The notes beneath the pieces are model-generated. The model did not search any database. It was not told where the DNA came from and saw only the letters and a program-made list of their open reading frames with translations. This document shows, one piece after another, positions 1 to 6,926 of a DNA stretch of 64,000 nt (positions within the stretch are counted from its first letter, which is position 1; each line of letters begins with the position of its first letter). Both the position numbers and the translations under genes were made by a program. Source of the DNA: Crocinitomicaceae bacterium (GTDB lineage Bacteria; Bacteroidota; Bacteroidia; Flavobacteriales_D; Crocinitomicaceae); assembly GCA_029252405.1 (NCBI GenBank), contig JAQXBM010000007.1, positions 1-64,000 on the forward strand. The letters run 5' to 3'.

Positions 1-21
1 TATTAGGCTTGATCGGATCAT
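1..21 (-). CDS. Start of a further gene of the ATP-grasp operon, cut by the left edge
   Basis: The stop of the 61-aa gene overlaps an ATG in the arrangement ATGA, the same coupling used between the ATP-grasp gene and the 61-aa gene. From this ATG the frame stays open to the window edge (M-I-R-S-S-L-I). This is only seven codons, so it is an inference from the coupled overlap. In related operons of other bacteria a retropepsin-like (RimB-type) protease gene accompanies the ligase and the membrane transglutaminase, but nothing here identifies this gene. Confidence 0.35.
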
Positions 22-203
22 AGTTCTTCGTTTGTGTAAACAGAAATTAGTGTATGTGAAGCAGCTGCGTCCGTAGCGATTGTGCGATCGGCGGGTGCGA
101 CAGTTATTTCATTTGTTCCTCTATTCGGTGTTCGAACCGCAGCCAATGTGAAAAGGATGGCCAATAAGACGATGTACGGGTATGATGGCTTTTGAAATTT
201 CAT
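18..203 (-). CDS. Small membrane-anchored or secreted protein, 61 aa, unknown
   Basis: I do not recognise this protein. It has a basic N-terminus followed by a hydrophobic stretch (about residues 8-24, YPYIVLLAILFTLAAV) and a polar, Thr/Ala-rich tail of about 35 residues, so it is either a signal-anchored peptide or a secreted small protein. Its ATG overlaps the TGA of the upstream ATP-grasp gene by 4 nt, and its own stop overlaps a further ATG, which argues for translational coupling inside one operon and against a chance ORF. A small extracytoplasmic peptide made with a ligase could be its substrate or carrier; that is speculation. Confidence 0.55.
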   Translation of the reverse strand: MKFQKPSYPYIVLLAILFTLAAVRTPNRGTNEITVAPADRTIATDAAASHTLISVYTNEEL

Positions 204-1087
204 GATGCTTGTTTTATAGTGTTATCAATTGCTTTTAAGATTGGAGACAGGCCTTTTCGGTTAACCATTTGAATGCCTAATCCCGGTCGAACATTCACTT
301 CCATTATGAGCGGTCCTTTGTTTTGATCGATGACGATGTCTACTCCGAGGTATTTTAGCGGAAAGACCTCTGCCGTTTTCAAAGAGAGTTCAATAATCTC
401 ATCCCAATACGGGAGTTGAATTCCTTTGATCTGTTTAAGGGTGTCAGGATGAACGTCGTAATATGAGTTTCCGTCAAAGGCATCTGTCATTTGCCCTGTT
501 GATAAATCAACGCCAATTCCCAGTCCACCTTGATGCAAATTTGCTTTTCCGTCAGAAGCATCTGTTGGAACACGGAGCATTCCCAATGCGATTTGGTGCT
601 TGTAAACAATCACCCTGAAATCCGGCACACCATCATCGTAGATCGATTGAAAAAATGAGTGAGGAATTATACATTCCTCGATAAGTACTCGATCATTCGA
701 CCCGAGTGAGTAAACACCCATGATGATATTGGCGAGGTACAAGTGAATCTGTTCATTTGTGAAGGATTCTTTGCCTTTCATCCAGGTTCCATCTTCGCTC
801 TTACTCAAAATGAGGATCCCGCCGCCACCGCTGCCGTTTGCTGGTTTGACGGCAAGAGACCTATATTGATTCATGTCATTCCAAACGGCTGGAATTTCAC
901 CGATGTTTTCGATCACGGCGTAGGTCTTCGCACACGCAATGTTGTGTTCCTCCATGATTTGTTTCGCGAGGACTTTATCGTCTGCTAACTTATAGTCCTT
1001 GCGTTTGTTCGATGGGTAAATGTATTTCACATTACGCTCGTTCAATCCGAGAAATTCCTTCTGTATTGATTTGAGTTTTTTAAACAT
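200..1087 (-). CDS. ATP-grasp ligase, alpha-L-glutamate ligase-like (RimK-related)
   Basis: This is a cytoplasmic ATP-grasp enzyme of the RimK-like class that joins an amino acid or peptide to a carboxylate through an acyl phosphate. Visible motifs are the glycine-rich nucleotide loop AVKPANGSGGGGILIL near residue 80-95, DFRVIVYKHQIALGMLR in the central domain, LGVDIVID, and the metal-binding MEVNVRPGLG near the C-terminus. The 295-aa length fits the alpha-L-glutamate ligase-like family, which in many bacteria is encoded next to a membrane transglutaminase-like protein, exactly as here (16 nt downstream of it). The amino acid added and the acceptor cannot be read from the sequence. Confidence 0.85.
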   Translation of the reverse strand: MFKKLKSIQKEFLGLNERNVKYIYPSNKRKDYKLADDKVLAKQIMEEHNIACAKTYAVIENIGEIPAVWNDMNQYRSLAVKPANGSGGGGILILSKSEDGTWMKGKESFTNEQIHLYLANIIMGVYSLGSNDRVLIEECIIPHSFFQSIYDDGVPDFRVIVYKHQIALGMLRVPTDASDGKANLHQGGLGIGVDLSTGQMTDAFDGNSYYDVHPDTLKQIKGIQLPYWDEIIELSLKTAEVFPLKYLGVDIVIDQNKGPLIMEVNVRPGLGIQMVNRKGLSPILKAIDNTIKQAS

Positions 1088-1103: not shown

Positions 1104-2639
1104 TTAGCTAATCATCCATCCAAATCGACGGTATTCTGAAATTCGTAATCCAATCCATTTCCCAAGTAGTATGGAGATTGCTGCAAAGAGCAACAACAAT
1201 TCTGGATAGTTCATCAAGTAAATGTGCACCGATGGTGACGCAAGAATGAAATAGGAAAACAAAGTCACAAAGAGCGTTTGAGTCATAACTCGTGAGGCCG
1301 TTTTGAATCCTTCTTCAACAACATATCTGGCGTATTTCTCCGCAGTAATCGTCATGATTACCACTGGAAAGAATGTGAGTGTTCCAACCGTTTCAACATT
1401 CAACTCAACTCCGAGGTAAAGAATCACGATCATTGCAAAAATCATCGCTATCAGCATCACTACTAATTTCGGGACATGCAGTATTCCCCATTTAGCGAGC
1501 GGAATATGTAGAAGACTGATCAATCCAACCATCAGAAGGAAAGAAATGATTCCCAGTGTTACACCTGTTGTCATGAATGAAATGGCAATCAACACAGGCA
1601 GGAATACACCGAAGGTTTTCAAACCGATCACATTTCTAAATATGGCCACAATTAGCGCTCCAATTGGAAGTAAAAGCATGATCAATAGCAAACGTTCTGA
1701 GAGGCCAGTTTGCTTGGAAATATGCCACATGTTGAAGCTCTCCAAAAAACTTTGATTGGTTCCATTCTCCGCGATCGTATAGAAGTAATCAAATGCCATG
1801 TCTGATGAATGAGTTACCAAGTATTCGTCTCCCTTGTAAATCGTGAGATAGTTCGATGGAATAAACGCGAAGTAATTGTTGAGTGCATCAAATGGAATCC
1901 ATACATTATTGATCTGAACTTCTGCCCACAAATGAGAGGTCTTTTTACGATCCGGATTCAAAATCAACCCGCCAACAACACGAGCAGGAATATTTGAACT
2001 TCTGCAGAGTGCAACGAACAATCGGCTTTTTCCATTGCATGATGCTGCATTTCGAACCAAGGCTTCTTTGGCAGTCATCAACTCCTTGATTTCTTCTGCA
2101 GGAATTCCTTGAACATACTCGAAAAAAGAAGTAATTATGGGTAAAACCTGTGCCTGTTCATTTTTGAGTTTTGTCATTAATTCCAAAATCTCAGAATCAT
2201 TCGACTCGATGAATTCTGTTTCTTGGGTGAATTCTGAGTACGAGTTTTCCACTGCCGACAGCTTAATCTCAGGATCGATAGTATAACGCTGTGATCGCCC
2301 AGTAACGTCAAATTCGTAGTTGATGTTCTGTTTACCAGTCGCTGTGTCAACATCCCAAGTTGCTCTTTGATTCGTTTGATTGTGTTGAGAAATTTTCGCT
2401 TTTGAAAACTGGATCGGTTTGATCGTTTGTCGTGAATCTGAAACCGGAATAAATGCTTTTACAGTTTGTTCCTTATCCGAATTTGCCAGTAGTTCAAAAT
2501 CATACTGAACGGAATAATGAACTTCACGTTCCGATTGATCTTGATTGAAAAAACCAAACTTCATTTTTAAAGCAATCGCGGTGATGCTTCCAATGATCAA
2601 TGTGGCTATTAATGAGTGTACTCCAAATTGAATTTTCAT
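1104..2639 (-). CDS. Membrane transglutaminase-like protein with C-terminal 7-TM domain
   Basis: This 511-aa protein has an N-terminal TM helix (about 8-28), an extracytoplasmic region, a transglutaminase-like core (about 165-260) and a C-terminal block of about seven hydrophobic segments (325-505). It matches the family usually annotated as inactive transglutaminase fused to seven TM helices, the standard partner of the adjacent ATP-grasp ligase. Here the usual triad can be aligned: Cys201 in NAASCNGKSRLF, His236 in SHLWAEV and Asp251 in IPFDALNNY, so activity (peptidase or acyl transfer in the periplasm) is plausible. It is the first gene of the minus-strand operon, and its upstream region holds the same two-part promoter element as fecR at 3265. 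Confidence 0.8.
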   Translation of the reverse strand: MKIQFGVHSLIATLIIGSITAIALKMKFGFFNQDQSEREVHYSVQYDFELLANSDKEQTVKAFIPVSDSRQTIKPIQFSKAKISQHNQTNQRATWDVDTATGKQNINYEFDVTGRSQRYTIDPEIKLSAVENSYSEFTQETEFIESNDSEILELMTKLKNEQAQVLPIITSFFEYVQGIPAEEIKELMTAKEALVRNAASCNGKSRLFVALCRSSNIPARVVGGLILNPDRKKTSHLWAEVQINNVWIPFDALNNYFAFIPSNYLTIYKGDEYLVTHSSDMAFDYFYTIAENGTNQSFLESFNMWHISKQTGLSERLLLIMLLLPIGALIVAIFRNVIGLKTFGVFLPVLIAISFMTTGVTLGIISFLLMVGLISLLHIPLAKWGILHVPKLVVMLIAMIFAMIVILYLGVELNVETVGTLTFFPVVIMTITAEKYARYVVEEGFKTASRVMTQTLFVTLFSYFILASPSVHIYLMNYPELLLLFAAISILLGKWIGLRISEYRRFGWMIS

Positions 2640-2666: not shown

Positions 2667-2700
2667 TCTAAAACAGCCCACGATTAAATGACCCTACCCC
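2667..2700 (-). promoter_or_regulatory. Two-part ECF-type promoter of the transglutaminase/ATP-grasp operon
   Basis: On the minus strand GGGGTAGGGT (2700-2691) is followed after 14 nt by CTGTTTTAGA (2676-2667), 27 nt before the ATG. The element before fecR has the identical 10-mer, the same 14-nt gap and a second box differing at one base. The pair looks like the -35 and -10 boxes of one ECF sigma factor; the sigma gene lies immediately beside it. Assignment to this sigma factor is inference. Confidence 0.6.
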
Positions 2701-2704
2701 CTCG

Positions 2705-2733
2705 TTGAAAAAAAATTAAGTTTCCTACATTTA
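2705..2733 (+). promoter_or_regulatory. Housekeeping-type promoter of the ECF sigma gene
   Basis: TTG at 2705 and TACATTTA at 2726-2733 are separated by 18 nt, close to the Bacteroidota TTG-N19-TAnnTTTG pattern with a final A instead of G. It lies 13 nt before the sigma start codon. No plus-strand copy of the GGGGTAGGGT element precedes the sigma gene, so the sigma gene itself may not be directly autoregulated from this side. Confidence 0.4.
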
Positions 2734-2746
2734 CACAAATTCTCTG

Positions 2747-3265
2747 ATGATCGAAAATGAAAAGGATGTATGTGCAGAGCCTGTTTTTCAACGGGTGTTT
2801 ACCCAATACGGGGAGCAATTGCGCAATTTCTTGATTTATCGAGGCAGTGAAGCAGGGCAAGCTGAAGACATTGTTCAAGAATCCTTCATCAAATTGTGGG
2901 AGAACTGCGCCAAAGTAATTCCATCCAAAGCGAAAAGCTATTTGTATACACTTGCATCAAATGCGTTCAAGAACGACATTGCGCATATGAAGGTGAGAAT
3001 GAAGTATGCTGAATCTGGTGTAGCAGAAAAAACCAACATCGAAACTCCCGAATTCAAAATGGAGGAAGATGAATTCAAGGAACGCTTGCAAAATGCGATT
3101 GCTGAATTGGTGCCAACACAGAGAGAAGTATTCTTAATGAATCGAATTGATAAGAAGAAATACGCCGAAATTGCAGAAGAGCTTGGAATCAGTGTGAAGG
3201 CTGTTGAAAAAAGAATGGGTAAGGCATTAAAGATTTTGAGAAGTAAAATAAAAGAATTGAAATAG
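2747..3265 (+). CDS. ECF RNA polymerase sigma factor (FecI-like)
   Basis: This 172-aa sigma-70 family protein has region 2 (AGQAEDIVQESFIKLWENC, about residues 45-65) and region 4 with its helix-turn-helix (YAEIAEELGISVKAVEKRM, about 140-160), as in extracytoplasmic-function sigma factors. It is followed 48 nt later by a FecR anti-sigma factor and then a TonB-dependent receptor, the classic surface-signalling order in Bacteroidota. Its likely targets are the two copies of GGGGTAGGGT-N14-CTGTTTWAGA, one before fecR and one before the divergent transglutaminase operon. Confidence 0.92.
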   Translation: MIENEKDVCAEPVFQRVFTQYGEQLRNFLIYRGSEAGQAEDIVQESFIKLWENCAKVIPSKAKSYLYTLASNAFKNDIAHMKVRMKYAESGVAEKTNIETPEFKMEEDEFKERLQNAIAELVPTQREVFLMNRIDKKKYAEIAEELGISVKAVEKRMGKALKILRSKIKELK

Positions 3266-3298
3266 GGGTAGGGTATTTTGAAACTCACCTGTTTAAGA
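3265..3298 (+). promoter_or_regulatory. Two-part ECF-type promoter of fecR-TonB receptor operon
   Basis: GGGGTAGGGT (3265-3274) begins at the last base of the sigma stop codon and is followed after 14 nt by CTGTTTAAGA (3289-3298), 15 nt before the FecR ATG. It is the plus-strand twin of the element at 2667-2700. The flanking bases are not conserved between the two copies, so the match is not simply a duplicated intergenic region. Confidence 0.6.
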
Positions 3299-3313: not shown

Positions 3314-4255
3314 ATGAAAGAAGAAGGACATATTGACGATGAATTATTGGGCCGCTGGCTTTCGGGTGAGATGACTCCCGAAGAATTGGCTTCATTTGAA
3401 TCTTCGGATTCATTTGAAACGTATCGCCATATTGCCGAATTCAGTTCGAAATTGTCCACCCCTTCATTTGATGATCAAGCGCTATTCGACAAAATTCAAG
3501 TGAACAAACGACGTGCTCAAGCTCCTGTTGTTAAGATGCGGAACTATCGTTGGGTGGGAATCGCTGCGACCTTCATTGTGTTAATAGGAATTGGTTCACT
3601 CTTCTTTGTGGATTGGGGCATTCCTGCACAAGATGCTGTTTTGAGAGTTTCGACGGATGCAGAAACGAAAGAAATCGTCCTTCCGAGCAAATCCAAAGTC
3701 AATTTAAATGTCGCTTCTACCATTGAGTATGATAGGTCTACTAATTGGGAAGATGAGCGAGTCGTAGAATTGAAAGGTGAAGCATATTTCGATGTTACAA
3801 AAGGGAGACCATTCAGCGTAAAAACGAGCTCAGGGACTATTTCAGTGCTTGGAACAGAATTCAATATCCGCGAGCGAAATGGCACGATGGAAATTTCCTG
3901 CTATGAAGGGAAAGTCAAAGTGACGGATACAAAATCACAATCGGTTATCCTCACGGTGGGTGAAAGCGCAAAAATTGTCAACGGTAAACTCGTCACTAGT
4001 TGGACCCCTGAATTGGAAGATGAACCAACTTGGTTTACAGGGGAAAGTAGCTTCTACGAGGCCTCGCTTGAAAACGTATTCATTGAATTGGAAAATCAGT
4101 ACGGAATTGATGTTCAACGTAACCAAGATTATTCAAATCGATTGTATTCTGGTGCTTTTGTGCACGAAAATTTGGAAGATGCGTCAAAAATGGTCTTCTT
4201 GCCAATGCAAATTTCCTATGAAATCATTGGAGATTCATTGATCGTTATCAAGTAA
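3314..4255 (+). CDS. FecR family anti-sigma factor
   Basis: The protein (313 aa) has a cytoplasmic N-terminus (LLGRWLSGEMTPEELASFE) that should bind the sigma factor, one TM helix at about residues 76-97 (VGIAATFIVLIGIGSLFF), a periplasmic FecR domain (about 110-205, with VELKGEAYFDV and VLGTEFNIR) and a C-terminal DUF4974 domain (about 240-313). It is expected to relay the state of the outer-membrane receptor to the sigma factor. Its stop is one base from the receptor start, so the two are translated as a pair. Confidence 0.93.
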   Translation: MKEEGHIDDELLGRWLSGEMTPEELASFESSDSFETYRHIAEFSSKLSTPSFDDQALFDKIQVNKRRAQAPVVKMRNYRWVGIAATFIVLIGIGSLFFVDWGIPAQDAVLRVSTDAETKEIVLPSKSKVNLNVASTIEYDRSTNWEDERVVELKGEAYFDVTKGRPFSVKTSSGTISVLGTEFNIRERNGTMEISCYEGKVKVTDTKSQSVILTVGESAKIVNGKLVTSWTPELEDEPTWFTGESSFYEASLENVFIELENQYGIDVQRNQDYSNRLYSGAFVHENLEDASKMVFLPMQISYEIIGDSLIVIK

Positions 4256-4256
4256 T

Positions 4257-6926
4257 ATGTTGAAGGGAATTACCTTATTAATGCTTCTTGTAGTTGGAAT
4301 GTCTTTTGGATTTTGTCAGACACAAATTTCCGAAGAGATGTCCAATGTACGTCTCGTAAAGGCCTTTCGCATCCTTGAGAAGAAATACGGACTCCGAATT
4401 GGTTATGACGTTAAACTCATTGGAAAGCGCAGAGTGACAGCCAAAATCAAGAATGCTTCGCCAAAAGAAGCCCTCAACCTTTTGTTAGATGGAACAGGTC
4501 TGGACTTCACAATTTCAAGTGATACCTACGTGGCGGTATTCCCAGGGAAAGCTCCTGTAGCAAAGAAACCTGCCAAAAAGAAAGAATATACCTATCAAGG
4601 GTGGATTTACGACGAAGAAAACGAATCAGCAATTCCATTCGCTAAGATCAAAATAGCAGGGACCAATCTTGGGGCGTATTCCGACGAGGATGGAAAGTTT
4701 TTGTTCACGACGACATCAAAAAAAGGACAATTTGAGATTTCCGCTTTGGGTTACTCCAAGGTGATCGTTGATTCAGATGAATTTCGCAGGAACAAGGGAC
4801 TGAAAGTCGCATTGAAAGTAGATGTGAAAGACTTTCCTGAAGTGGTGGTGGAGTACCTAGCAGAGGGAATGACGGTTTCCAAAGATATTTCAAGATTGGA
4901 TATTCGCCCCAGTCGATTAGGAGTAACGTCGGGAACTGTCGATCCAGATGTGTTCATCAACCTTCAAAATGTCCCAGGGATAAACTCGGCAAATGGAACC
5001 GTTTCAGAAATGCAAATTCGCGGTGGAACTTCCGATCAAAATTTGTTGCTTTGGGAGGGAATAACCCTGTATCACTCGGGTCATTTTAACGGAATGCTTT
5101 CATCGATCAATCCATATATTGTGGACGAATCTCGAGTATACCGTGGGGTGTATGATCCGTATTACGGTGGAAGAGCTTCTGGATTGATTGAAATGTTCTC
5201 TCTGCCTAAAATTCCTTCGAGCATCGAAGCAGGAGGCGGAGTCAATTTGATTTCAGCAGACGCCTACATCAAAATGCCCATTGGAAAGAAATTGGGAATC
5301 ATGGTTTCTGGGAGACGTTCATTTGTCGCTACTATTCAAACTCCAACTTACAAAAAGTACGCGAATCGAATTTATCAAGAAACGCAGTTTCGCCAAAGCG
5401 GAGAAGTGTACGATGAGTCGTTTGAGGATTCTCTGGTGCTCGAAGAAGAAACGCAGAATTCGTTTTATTTCACTGATGTCAATGCAAAGGTGAGATTTGA
5501 ACCAACAAAAAAGTCGTCGATTTCAACAAGCCTGATGTACACCAACAATGAGTTGTTCTATGAAACGATGCAGCCTCTAGATTCAAGTTCTTCGAGAAAC
5601 TTCTTTCAAACGAGAAATTTTGGAGCGTCGGTAGACTGGACTCAAAAATGGAATACACGATGGACGTCTAAGCTGAATATCACAATTAGTGATTACACCT
5701 ATGTGTATCAGGATCAGTTCGAAGAGAAAGATGAAGGTGAGACTTTTCAAAGTGGAGTGTCTAAATCGAATCGAATCAATACAATCGGCTGGCGTTGGAG
5801 TAACCGTGTGTTGTTGAACGAGAAAAATTCCTTGCACATCGGTTATCAAGGAGATGTTTACGAGGTGGATTACGGAATTGTTGAATCTGAAGATTCCGTC
5901 GATTTATTTGCAGAATCTGATACGACACAACTTTTGGTGAATGTTCTTCACGGAATGTACGAATGGAAAAACAATAAATGGATGGCTAGAGCTGGGGCTC
6001 GATTGTCACATCTTTCAAGAGTAAACGAGGTCTATGTTGATCCGCGCATCTATTTTCAGTACATCTTAAACAGAAAGGTTACGTTCAAAGCAGGAGGAGC
6101 GATTCAGCATCAGTTCATCAGTCAGGTGGAAGATCTCGAACAAGCGCAACTCGGTTTGTCCAATCGAATTTGGGTACTCTCTGATTTCGATGGTGTCCCG
6201 GTAGTTAGAAGTTCCAGTGTCAATGCAGGTTTCTTACTTCGTCTGAAAGGGTGGCATGTCGAGGTTGACGGATACCTCAAGGATATTCAGGGAATCTCGA
6301 ATTTCGCAGATGATAAATCCATGTCTTCCGGTTTTGATCGAGGTGTGGCGGGCGTAAAAGGAATCGATTTCTTGGTCAAGAAAAGATGGAAAGGATGGAG
6401 AGCATGGGTTTCCTACACGCTGAGTGATGTGCTCTATTCCTTTGAAGAAGATAGCTTAGGTACTTTTGCTGCGCCGTTCAATCAGCCGCATGTAGTGAAG
6501 GCAATTACCTCTCTGAATTGGAGAAATTGGGAGGGAGCCCTGACGTTTAAAATCGCTTCTGGAAAACCATATACTCGCCTTTTAGGACTGAAGGAAAATC
6601 CAGAGGGTGTTATTGGAGGAGACCTCGAGGACGATTTCATTTTTGACTATGGTCCGCGAAACGGAGCGAAACTTCCAATTTATCACCGTTTGGATTTATC
6701 CATCTTTTACACGCTGAAGAAGAGTGAAAGTCGTAACCCTTGGAAATTGAAATTCGGAATTTCCTTGCTGAACGTGTATGATCAGTCGAACTACTTGAGT
6801 CGCACATATCGTTTGGAAGTAACCGAAGACGACTTGGGAAATCAGGATGTGGAAACCCTAACTATTGATCGTTACTACCTCCGGTTCACACCCAACGCCA
6901 CCATTCGCTTCGAGTTCGGAGAGTAA
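4257..6926 (+). CDS. TonB-dependent outer-membrane receptor with STN signalling domain
   Basis: This 889-aa receptor has a signal peptide (ending near GFCQ), a secretin/TonB short N-terminal (STN) domain (about 22-95), a carboxypeptidase-regulatory-like beta-sandwich (about 115-200), a plug (about 220-330, with NVPGINSANGTVSEMQIRGG) and a long beta-barrel that ends with an aromatic-rich strand. The STN domain in such receptors contacts FecR. No SusD homologue follows, so it is probably not a SusCD glycan importer; the ligand is unknown. The linked ATP-grasp operon makes a peptide or modified amino-acid ligand worth considering, as inference only. Confidence 0.92.
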   Translation: MLKGITLLMLLVVGMSFGFCQTQISEEMSNVRLVKAFRILEKKYGLRIGYDVKLIGKRRVTAKIKNASPKEALNLLLDGTGLDFTISSDTYVAVFPGKAPVAKKPAKKKEYTYQGWIYDEENESAIPFAKIKIAGTNLGAYSDEDGKFLFTTTSKKGQFEISALGYSKVIVDSDEFRRNKGLKVALKVDVKDFPEVVVEYLAEGMTVSKDISRLDIRPSRLGVTSGTVDPDVFINLQNVPGINSANGTVSEMQIRGGTSDQNLLLWEGITLYHSGHFNGMLSSINPYIVDESRVYRGVYDPYYGGRASGLIEMFSLPKIPSSIEAGGGVNLISADAYIKMPIGKKLGIMVSGRRSFVATIQTPTYKKYANRIYQETQFRQSGEVYDESFEDSLVLEEETQNSFYFTDVNAKVRFEPTKKSSISTSLMYTNNELFYETMQPLDSSSSRNFFQTRNFGASVDWTQKWNTRWTSKLNITISDYTYVYQDQFEEKDEGETFQSGVSKSNRINTIGWRWSNRVLLNEKNSLHIGYQGDVYEVDYGIVESEDSVDLFAESDTTQLLVNVLHGMYEWKNNKWMARAGARLSHLSRVNEVYVDPRIYFQYILNRKVTFKAGGAIQHQFISQVEDLEQAQLGLSNRIWVLSDFDGVPVVRSSSVNAGFLLRLKGWHVEVDGYLKDIQGISNFADDKSMSSGFDRGVAGVKGIDFLVKKRWKGWRAWVSYTLSDVLYSFEEDSLGTFAAPFNQPHVVKAITSLNWRNWEGALTFKIASGKPYTRLLGLKENPEGVIGGDLEDDFIFDYGPRNGAKLPIYHRLDLSIFYTLKKSESRNPWKLKFGISLLNVYDQSNYLSRTYRLEVTEDDLGNQDVETLTIDRYYLRFTPNATIRFEFGE

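Follow-up and report, generated by a model that had tools for sequence, protein, structure and literature searches.

Does a single ECF sigma factor serve, through one two-part promoter, both the fecR–TonB receptor genes that follow it and the transglutaminase/ATP-grasp operon that runs away from it? The question was raised by a 64,000-nt stretch of DNA of a marine Crocinitomicaceae bacterium, analysed as a whole and hereafter called the window, in which an original prediction had pointed out the same pair of boxes in front of both operons. The paired elements, their link to the ECF sigma factor, the content of the operon and the regulon were computed directly. On this basis both elements are probably (with a probability of about 0.85) twin promoters of one ECF sigma factor within a cell-surface signalling island, in which box 1 would act as the −35 and box 2 as the −10 element. 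The gene assignments proposed earlier (ATP-grasp, transglutaminase, ECF, FecR and TonB receptor) were confirmed by domain families, and the features are detailed in Table 1.

Table 1. Location of the putative promoters and the predicted genes of the island in the 64,000-nt window.
Feature	Position	Strand	Sequence, family or remark
61-aa protein with N-terminal membrane anchor (MKFQKPSYPYIVLLAILF...)	18..203	-	Overlaps ATP-grasp stop by 4 nt
Cytoplasmic ATP-grasp ligase	200..1087	-	PF14397; TIGR02291-like, RimK/RloC-like
Inner-membrane transglutaminase/protease-like protein	1104..2639	-	PF01841 and PF14402
Putative ECF-type promoter element before transglutaminase operon	2667..2700	-	GGGGTAGGGT-CATTTAATCGTGGG-CTGTTTTAGA (box 1, N14 spacer, box 2)
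Possible housekeeping promoter of ECF gene	2705..2732	+	TTG-N18-TACATTT; weak consensus match
ECF sigma factor, Bacteroidota FecR-partner type	2747..3265	+	TIGR02985
Putative ECF-type promoter element before fecR–TonB receptor	3265..3298	+	GGGGTAGGGT-ATTTTGAAACTCAC-CTGTTTAAGA (box 1, N14 spacer, box 2)
FecR-type transmembrane anti-sigma regulator	3314..4255	+	PF04773
TonB-dependent receptor with STN signalling domain, CarbopepD_reg_2 and plug	4257..6926	+	Domain matches

The two-part element is real, and the evidence for it is stronger than had been claimed. Both copies lie where they had been reported, each with a gap of 14 nt and with different spacers, and the ECF sigma gene is located between them. 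The pattern GGGGTAGGGT-N14-CTGTTTWA has exactly two matches in the window (none in 100 shuffles), and no further match appears even when 3 mismatches are allowed. The minus-strand copy faces the transglutaminase gene, with 27–29 nt from the end of the site to the start codon, and the first G of the plus-strand copy is the last base of the stop codon of the ECF sigma gene. The copies are about 600 nt apart, a distance at which the second could be a functionless product of chance or of a recent local duplication; the probability of this is negligible, as it is contradicted by conservation in eight families and by the unrelated spacers and flanks. A chance match was ruled out by the shuffles (0 expected) and by this conservation, and an origin by local duplication was likewise rejected, both copies being kept in all eight families.

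Within the complete genome (4.28 Mb) and in relatives, where a search had been proposed, the element was found to be present and conserved. Two more good copies of the consensus occur in the genome outside the window, one 25 nt before the gene of a secreted CotH-domain protein and the other 25 nt before the gene of a GDSL-hydrolase lipoprotein. The first of these sites is L050:8844 (G000:C40:36812, minus), ahead of the CotH-kinase-domain protein, and the second is L051:11522 (G000:C66:115490, minus), ahead of the GDSL-hydrolase lipoprotein.

The family sample comprised 150 Crocinitomicaceae genomes, including that of the window, and was searched twice. When 2 mismatches were allowed in an initial search of 60 relatives, the reversed control gave similar counts in most genomes, and the search was then tightened. 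The refined element, without mismatch, yielded 19 copies, all confined to the six genomes that carry the orthologous ECF gene, that is, the genome of the window and five others with a close ortholog (E below 1e-70, 67–71% identity); a more distant ECF (41% identity) was found in G114. The exact full element has no copy in the other 144 of the 150 genomes searched. All but one of the 19 copies end 7–44 nt ahead of a start codon on the same strand. The targets in the six genomes are fecR, the transglutaminase gene and the small anchored protein, together with the CotH-domain protein genes (six of six genomes) and the GDSL lipoprotein genes (four genomes), and a one-mismatch element also precedes an alpha/beta-hydrolase lipoprotein gene. 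The CotH-domain copy of G010 ends in a type IX secretion tail.

Two genomes of the same genus, G018 and G021, keep the ECF–FecR–receptor genes and the CotH gene without the transglutaminase, the hydrolase being also kept in G018; thus, the transglutaminase operon is one output of the sensor and not its whole purpose. In G018, an exact element (L046:4018, G018:C20, minus) occupies the site at which the transglutaminase operon lies in relatives and is followed by no recognisable gene; it is possibly the scar of a lost operon.

To cover the phylum, GTDB species genomes were scanned with a transglutaminase alignment and the best 80 related loci were taken. Forty of these 80 best loci contain the divergent island, with TonB receptor–FecR–ECF on one side and transglutaminase–ATP-grasp on the other, some of the contigs ending before the receptor. 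The islands belong to eight families, Crocinitomicaceae, Saprospiraceae, Cyclobacteriaceae, Roseivirgaceae, Flammeovirgaceae, Splendidivirgaceae, Prolixibacteraceae and Flavobacteriaceae, and many of the 40 are from Aquimarina. Up to about 200 nt ahead of fecR, the core GGTRGGG is present in 35 of 38 islands, and within the same distance upstream of the transglutaminase gene in 37 of 40, against a background of 12 out of 458 among the remaining genes of these loci. Where no ECF is linked, 3 of 38 transglutaminase genes have the core; for two of those three, both from Saprospiraceae, related ECFs are encoded elsewhere in the genome, with a matching or near-matching element before their fecR. 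The two islands without the exact core (Tenacibaculum and Flavobacterium laiguense) have related boxes, with the same spacing, on both sides. The best sites showed the 14-nt spacing in 38/39 and 37/39 islands on the two sides, respectively. A pattern-versus-shuffle test on the intergenic DNA of the islands, whose shuffles keep the G-rich composition, was passed on both sides by 22 of 39 islands and, being uninformative for that reason, gave way to the comparison with the remaining genes of these loci. Far from being absent in relatives, the element is conserved together with the ECF, and this conservation across the phylum supports the predicted ECF-dependent two-part promoter common to both operons.

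A two-part site with fixed spacing could also be an operator, bound by a transcription factor in front of the two operons, with the intervening ECF gene incidental. This is highly improbable, since boxes of 9 + 14 + 8 nt, on the coding strand and 7–44 nt before start codons, have the layout of a −35/−10 pair with short leaders; moreover, the presence of the element follows the ECF ortholog genome by genome, even when unlinked, and no other regulator is consistently linked.

The twin promoters of the preferred reading also seem to change together. In 12 Aquimarina genomes (5–6.5 Mb), of the 22 exact matches to the local version of the element, 21 fall at the island, and the reversed-pattern control gave no sites. 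The agreement of box 2 was 6.74 of 8 within an island and 5.70 between islands, a difference that 0 of 10000 permutations reached (phylogeny being ignored in the permutations), whereas that of the spacer was hardly higher within than between islands (5.69 and 5.28 of 14). A subclade of Aquimarina has CGGTTATA as box 2 on both sides, and most others have CTGTTAT on both. Judged from these sequences, such an in-step change of box 2 is what would be expected if a sigma factor had changed in concert with both of its promoters.

Other FecR-linked ECFs, 40–60% identical, also have GGTAGG-type boxes before fecR, so that box 1 marks an ECF subfamily and is not unique to one sigma factor. As several related ECFs share it, the whole element could be taken as a generic promoter signature of all FecR-linked ECFs of Bacteroidota, with nothing specific to the island. 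This is very unlikely, because the second boxes of many such ECFs, some of them again in divergent pairs, are different (TTGTCGTA, GTTGTTCTA) or absent, the full element is limited to few sites in the genome of the window and in Aquimarina, and exact copies are lacking in the 144 family genomes without a close ECF ortholog. More of the specificity is so probably carried by box 2 than by box 1. Two sister ECF–FecR loci of Flavobacteriaceae (L208:2060 and L213:2059) have their own divergent GGTAGGGT pair with the other second box, TTGTCGTA; one of these GGTAGGGT elements would drive a putative lipoprotein of >440 aa, apparently another sensor with twin promoters.

With respect to the sensor genes, the fecR product is the only PF04773 match found in the genome, and no relative of the receptor was found in the PDB search. 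In a check of the window and 22 further islands, no core box was found ahead of the ECF gene; thus, the sigma gene appears to lie outside its own regulon, with FecR and the receptor inside, in what looks like a feedback design. The Aquimarina islands checked have a TTG-N20-TATTTTTG match upstream of the ECF gene.

The transglutaminase protein consists of an N-terminal TM helix, a domain with Cys201, His236 and Asp251, and a 7-TM C-terminal domain (PF14402). Its structural model comprises the TM helix, a beta domain, the core and a helical membrane domain; in the core, Cys201 starts a helix, and His236 and Asp251 are on adjacent strands. The best PDB match was 3ISR, a putative cysteine protease of Cytophaga hutchinsonii, and no PDB relative of the membrane part was found. 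The model supports a periplasmic domain with a transglutaminase fold and a C-H-D triad, and this triad is present in 75 of 79 transglutaminase sequences, which had been collected with scan patterns that themselves contained C and H.

Downstream of the ATP-grasp gene, at the place of the 61-aa protein, relatives encode N-anchored proteins of 60–80 aa, often with MK..KPS.PY; no such small protein was found in the Aquimarina islands. In other phyla, and in those Bacteroidota that lack the ECF, the small protein is replaced by an N-anchored protein of 520–1000 aa, with TPR repeats in the one scanned. The 61-aa protein may represent a leftover anchor or serve as a substrate. A barrel gene also follows the ATP-grasp gene in the operons of relatives; in the genome of the window it is found on contig C43, whose start overlaps the end of the contig of the window (C55), the operon spanning this assembly break (C55 end and L204:1-100). 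In all, 64 ORFs were assigned to the barrel family. The model is a confident 16-stranded barrel (pLDDT 89.5), a fold search of the PDB returned generic barrels with query-normalised TM-scores below 0.5, and three examples scanned gave no significant Pfam match. Barrels of about 390 aa and 16 strands (L049:3097-4377 and homologs) occur in the transglutaminase/ATP-grasp operon of several phyla. In two genera, an extra element lies within the 3' end of the ATP-grasp gene, ahead of the small-protein and barrel genes (L092:5304 and L097:8369, minus).

The sensor of the island has the same three proteins, in the same order, as cell-surface signalling of the FecIR/FecA type (ECF sigma, FecR and TonB receptor with STN), and a putative sigma-dependent promoter before the downstream genes is likewise present here. 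Unlike that type, the element precedes fecR and not the sigma gene, the sigma factor would also control a divergent, non-transport operon encoding an enzyme pair, and in Crocinitomicaceae its targets would include, in addition, the secreted CotH-domain and hydrolase genes.

The enzyme pair resembles rloABC of Pseudomonas aeruginosa, in which rloB encodes a transglutaminase described as inactive and fused to 7 TM, and rloC an ATP-grasp protein; both form one pathway with secreted retropepsins, affecting osmotic tolerance, biofilm, antibiotic resistance and shape, and 96% of RloB hits are reported to come from Proteobacteria (PMC12239564). A Shewanella homolog influences vesicle production (PMC12096838). 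As in rloABC (PMC12239564), a 7-TM protein of transglutaminase fold adjoins a cytoplasmic ATP-grasp protein. In contrast to rloABC, the island has no secreted retropepsin (PF05618), its predicted triad Cys201, His236 and Asp251 is intact while RloB is described as inactive, and it adds the small anchored protein (or TPR protein) and the outer-membrane barrel, under probable ECF control. PF05618 matched a single gene of the genome, RimB-like and next to a RimK-like one on contig C81. The transglutaminase of the island scores 115 against the RloB HMM, whose cut-off is 900. Because the retropepsin is absent, the operon is best regarded as a Bacteroidota relative of rloBC, not as a member, and it may work like rlo.

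The island ligase belongs to the same ATP-grasp superfamily as the enzyme of the RimK/RimB pair for S6 modification, but to another subfamily (PF14397), the RimB-like/RimK-like pair on C81 being separate. The barrel resembles the 16- to 18-stranded barrels of polymer export, BcsC (query-normalised TM-scores 0.47–0.49) and AlgE (0.42–0.46) being among its best matches, with FadL scoring similarly. A further likeness to these systems is that the barrel of other lineages is preceded by a long N-anchored protein, which had TPR repeats in the one case scanned; unlike them, the operon has no synthase of a known polysaccharide.

The original prediction had called the system one not seen described. 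This holds for the coupling and not for the pair itself, since a transglutaminase/ATP-grasp pair is known from rloBC (PMC12239564). Cell-surface signalling and RloBC are already known; the fixed coupling of both, the version of Bacteroidota with an intact active site, and the small-protein and barrel genes of the operon were not found described, and the literature search found no description of the element or of a comparable Bacteroidota regulon.

Following what is known of these protein families, the outer-membrane TonB/STN receptor would sense an extracellular or envelope cue, which the inner-membrane FecR would relay, releasing the ECF sigma factor. The free sigma factor would transcribe fecR and the receptor gene, in a feedback loop that excludes the sigma gene, and the divergent operon for transglutaminase-7TM, ATP-grasp enzyme, small anchored protein and 16-stranded outer-membrane barrel. 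In Crocinitomicaceae it would also drive the secreted CotH-kinase-domain protein and the GDSL-hydrolase lipoprotein, targets from which the regulon appears to concern the cell surface. The enzyme and export steps, modelled by analogy on families of known activity and surface function, are tentative: working like rloBC, the cytoplasmic ATP-grasp enzyme would ligate an amino acid or peptide, and the product of this ligation would be handled or cross-linked at the periplasmic face by the membrane transglutaminase and connected to the outer membrane, or let out, by the barrel.

Alternatively, the operon could be an accessory of TonB-dependent uptake (receptor maturation or ligand import) and not an rlo-like modification of the envelope, an explanation that concerns its function and not the promoters. 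Cell-surface signalling systems mostly control uptake genes (PMC9249621), and the receptor regularly belongs to the island. An uptake role is nevertheless unlikely, as Spirochaetota, Myxococcota, Nitrospirota, Pseudomonadota and others have the same operon, with the long N-anchored protein and the barrel, and no ECF or receptor with it, and as none of the extra regulon members, a CotH-domain protein and hydrolases, is a transporter.

Returning to the rlo-like reading, a bolder and rather doubtful extension is a sensor-controlled trans-envelope machine widespread in Bacteroidota. The ATP-grasp enzyme would make a peptide or poly-amino-acid product, an active transglutaminase would attach or cross-link it in the periplasm, the dedicated 16-stranded barrel would carry or anchor it at the surface, and the ECF/FecR/TonB receptor switch would possibly sense the product itself. 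In such a machine the barrel is accompanied by a long N-anchored protein in other phyla and by a tiny one here.

The RloBC-type pair has effects on osmotic tolerance, biofilm and shape in Pseudomonas, and its Shewanella homolog on vesicle output; here such a pair is tied to a surface sensor. Its dedicated sensor at the surface, its defined promoter, the compactness of the regulon and the presence of two more conserved genes, one of them for an outer-membrane barrel, all offer handles for finding the inducing signal and the substrate. Aquimarina offers culturable hosts for this purpose, with almost only two promoters to consider.
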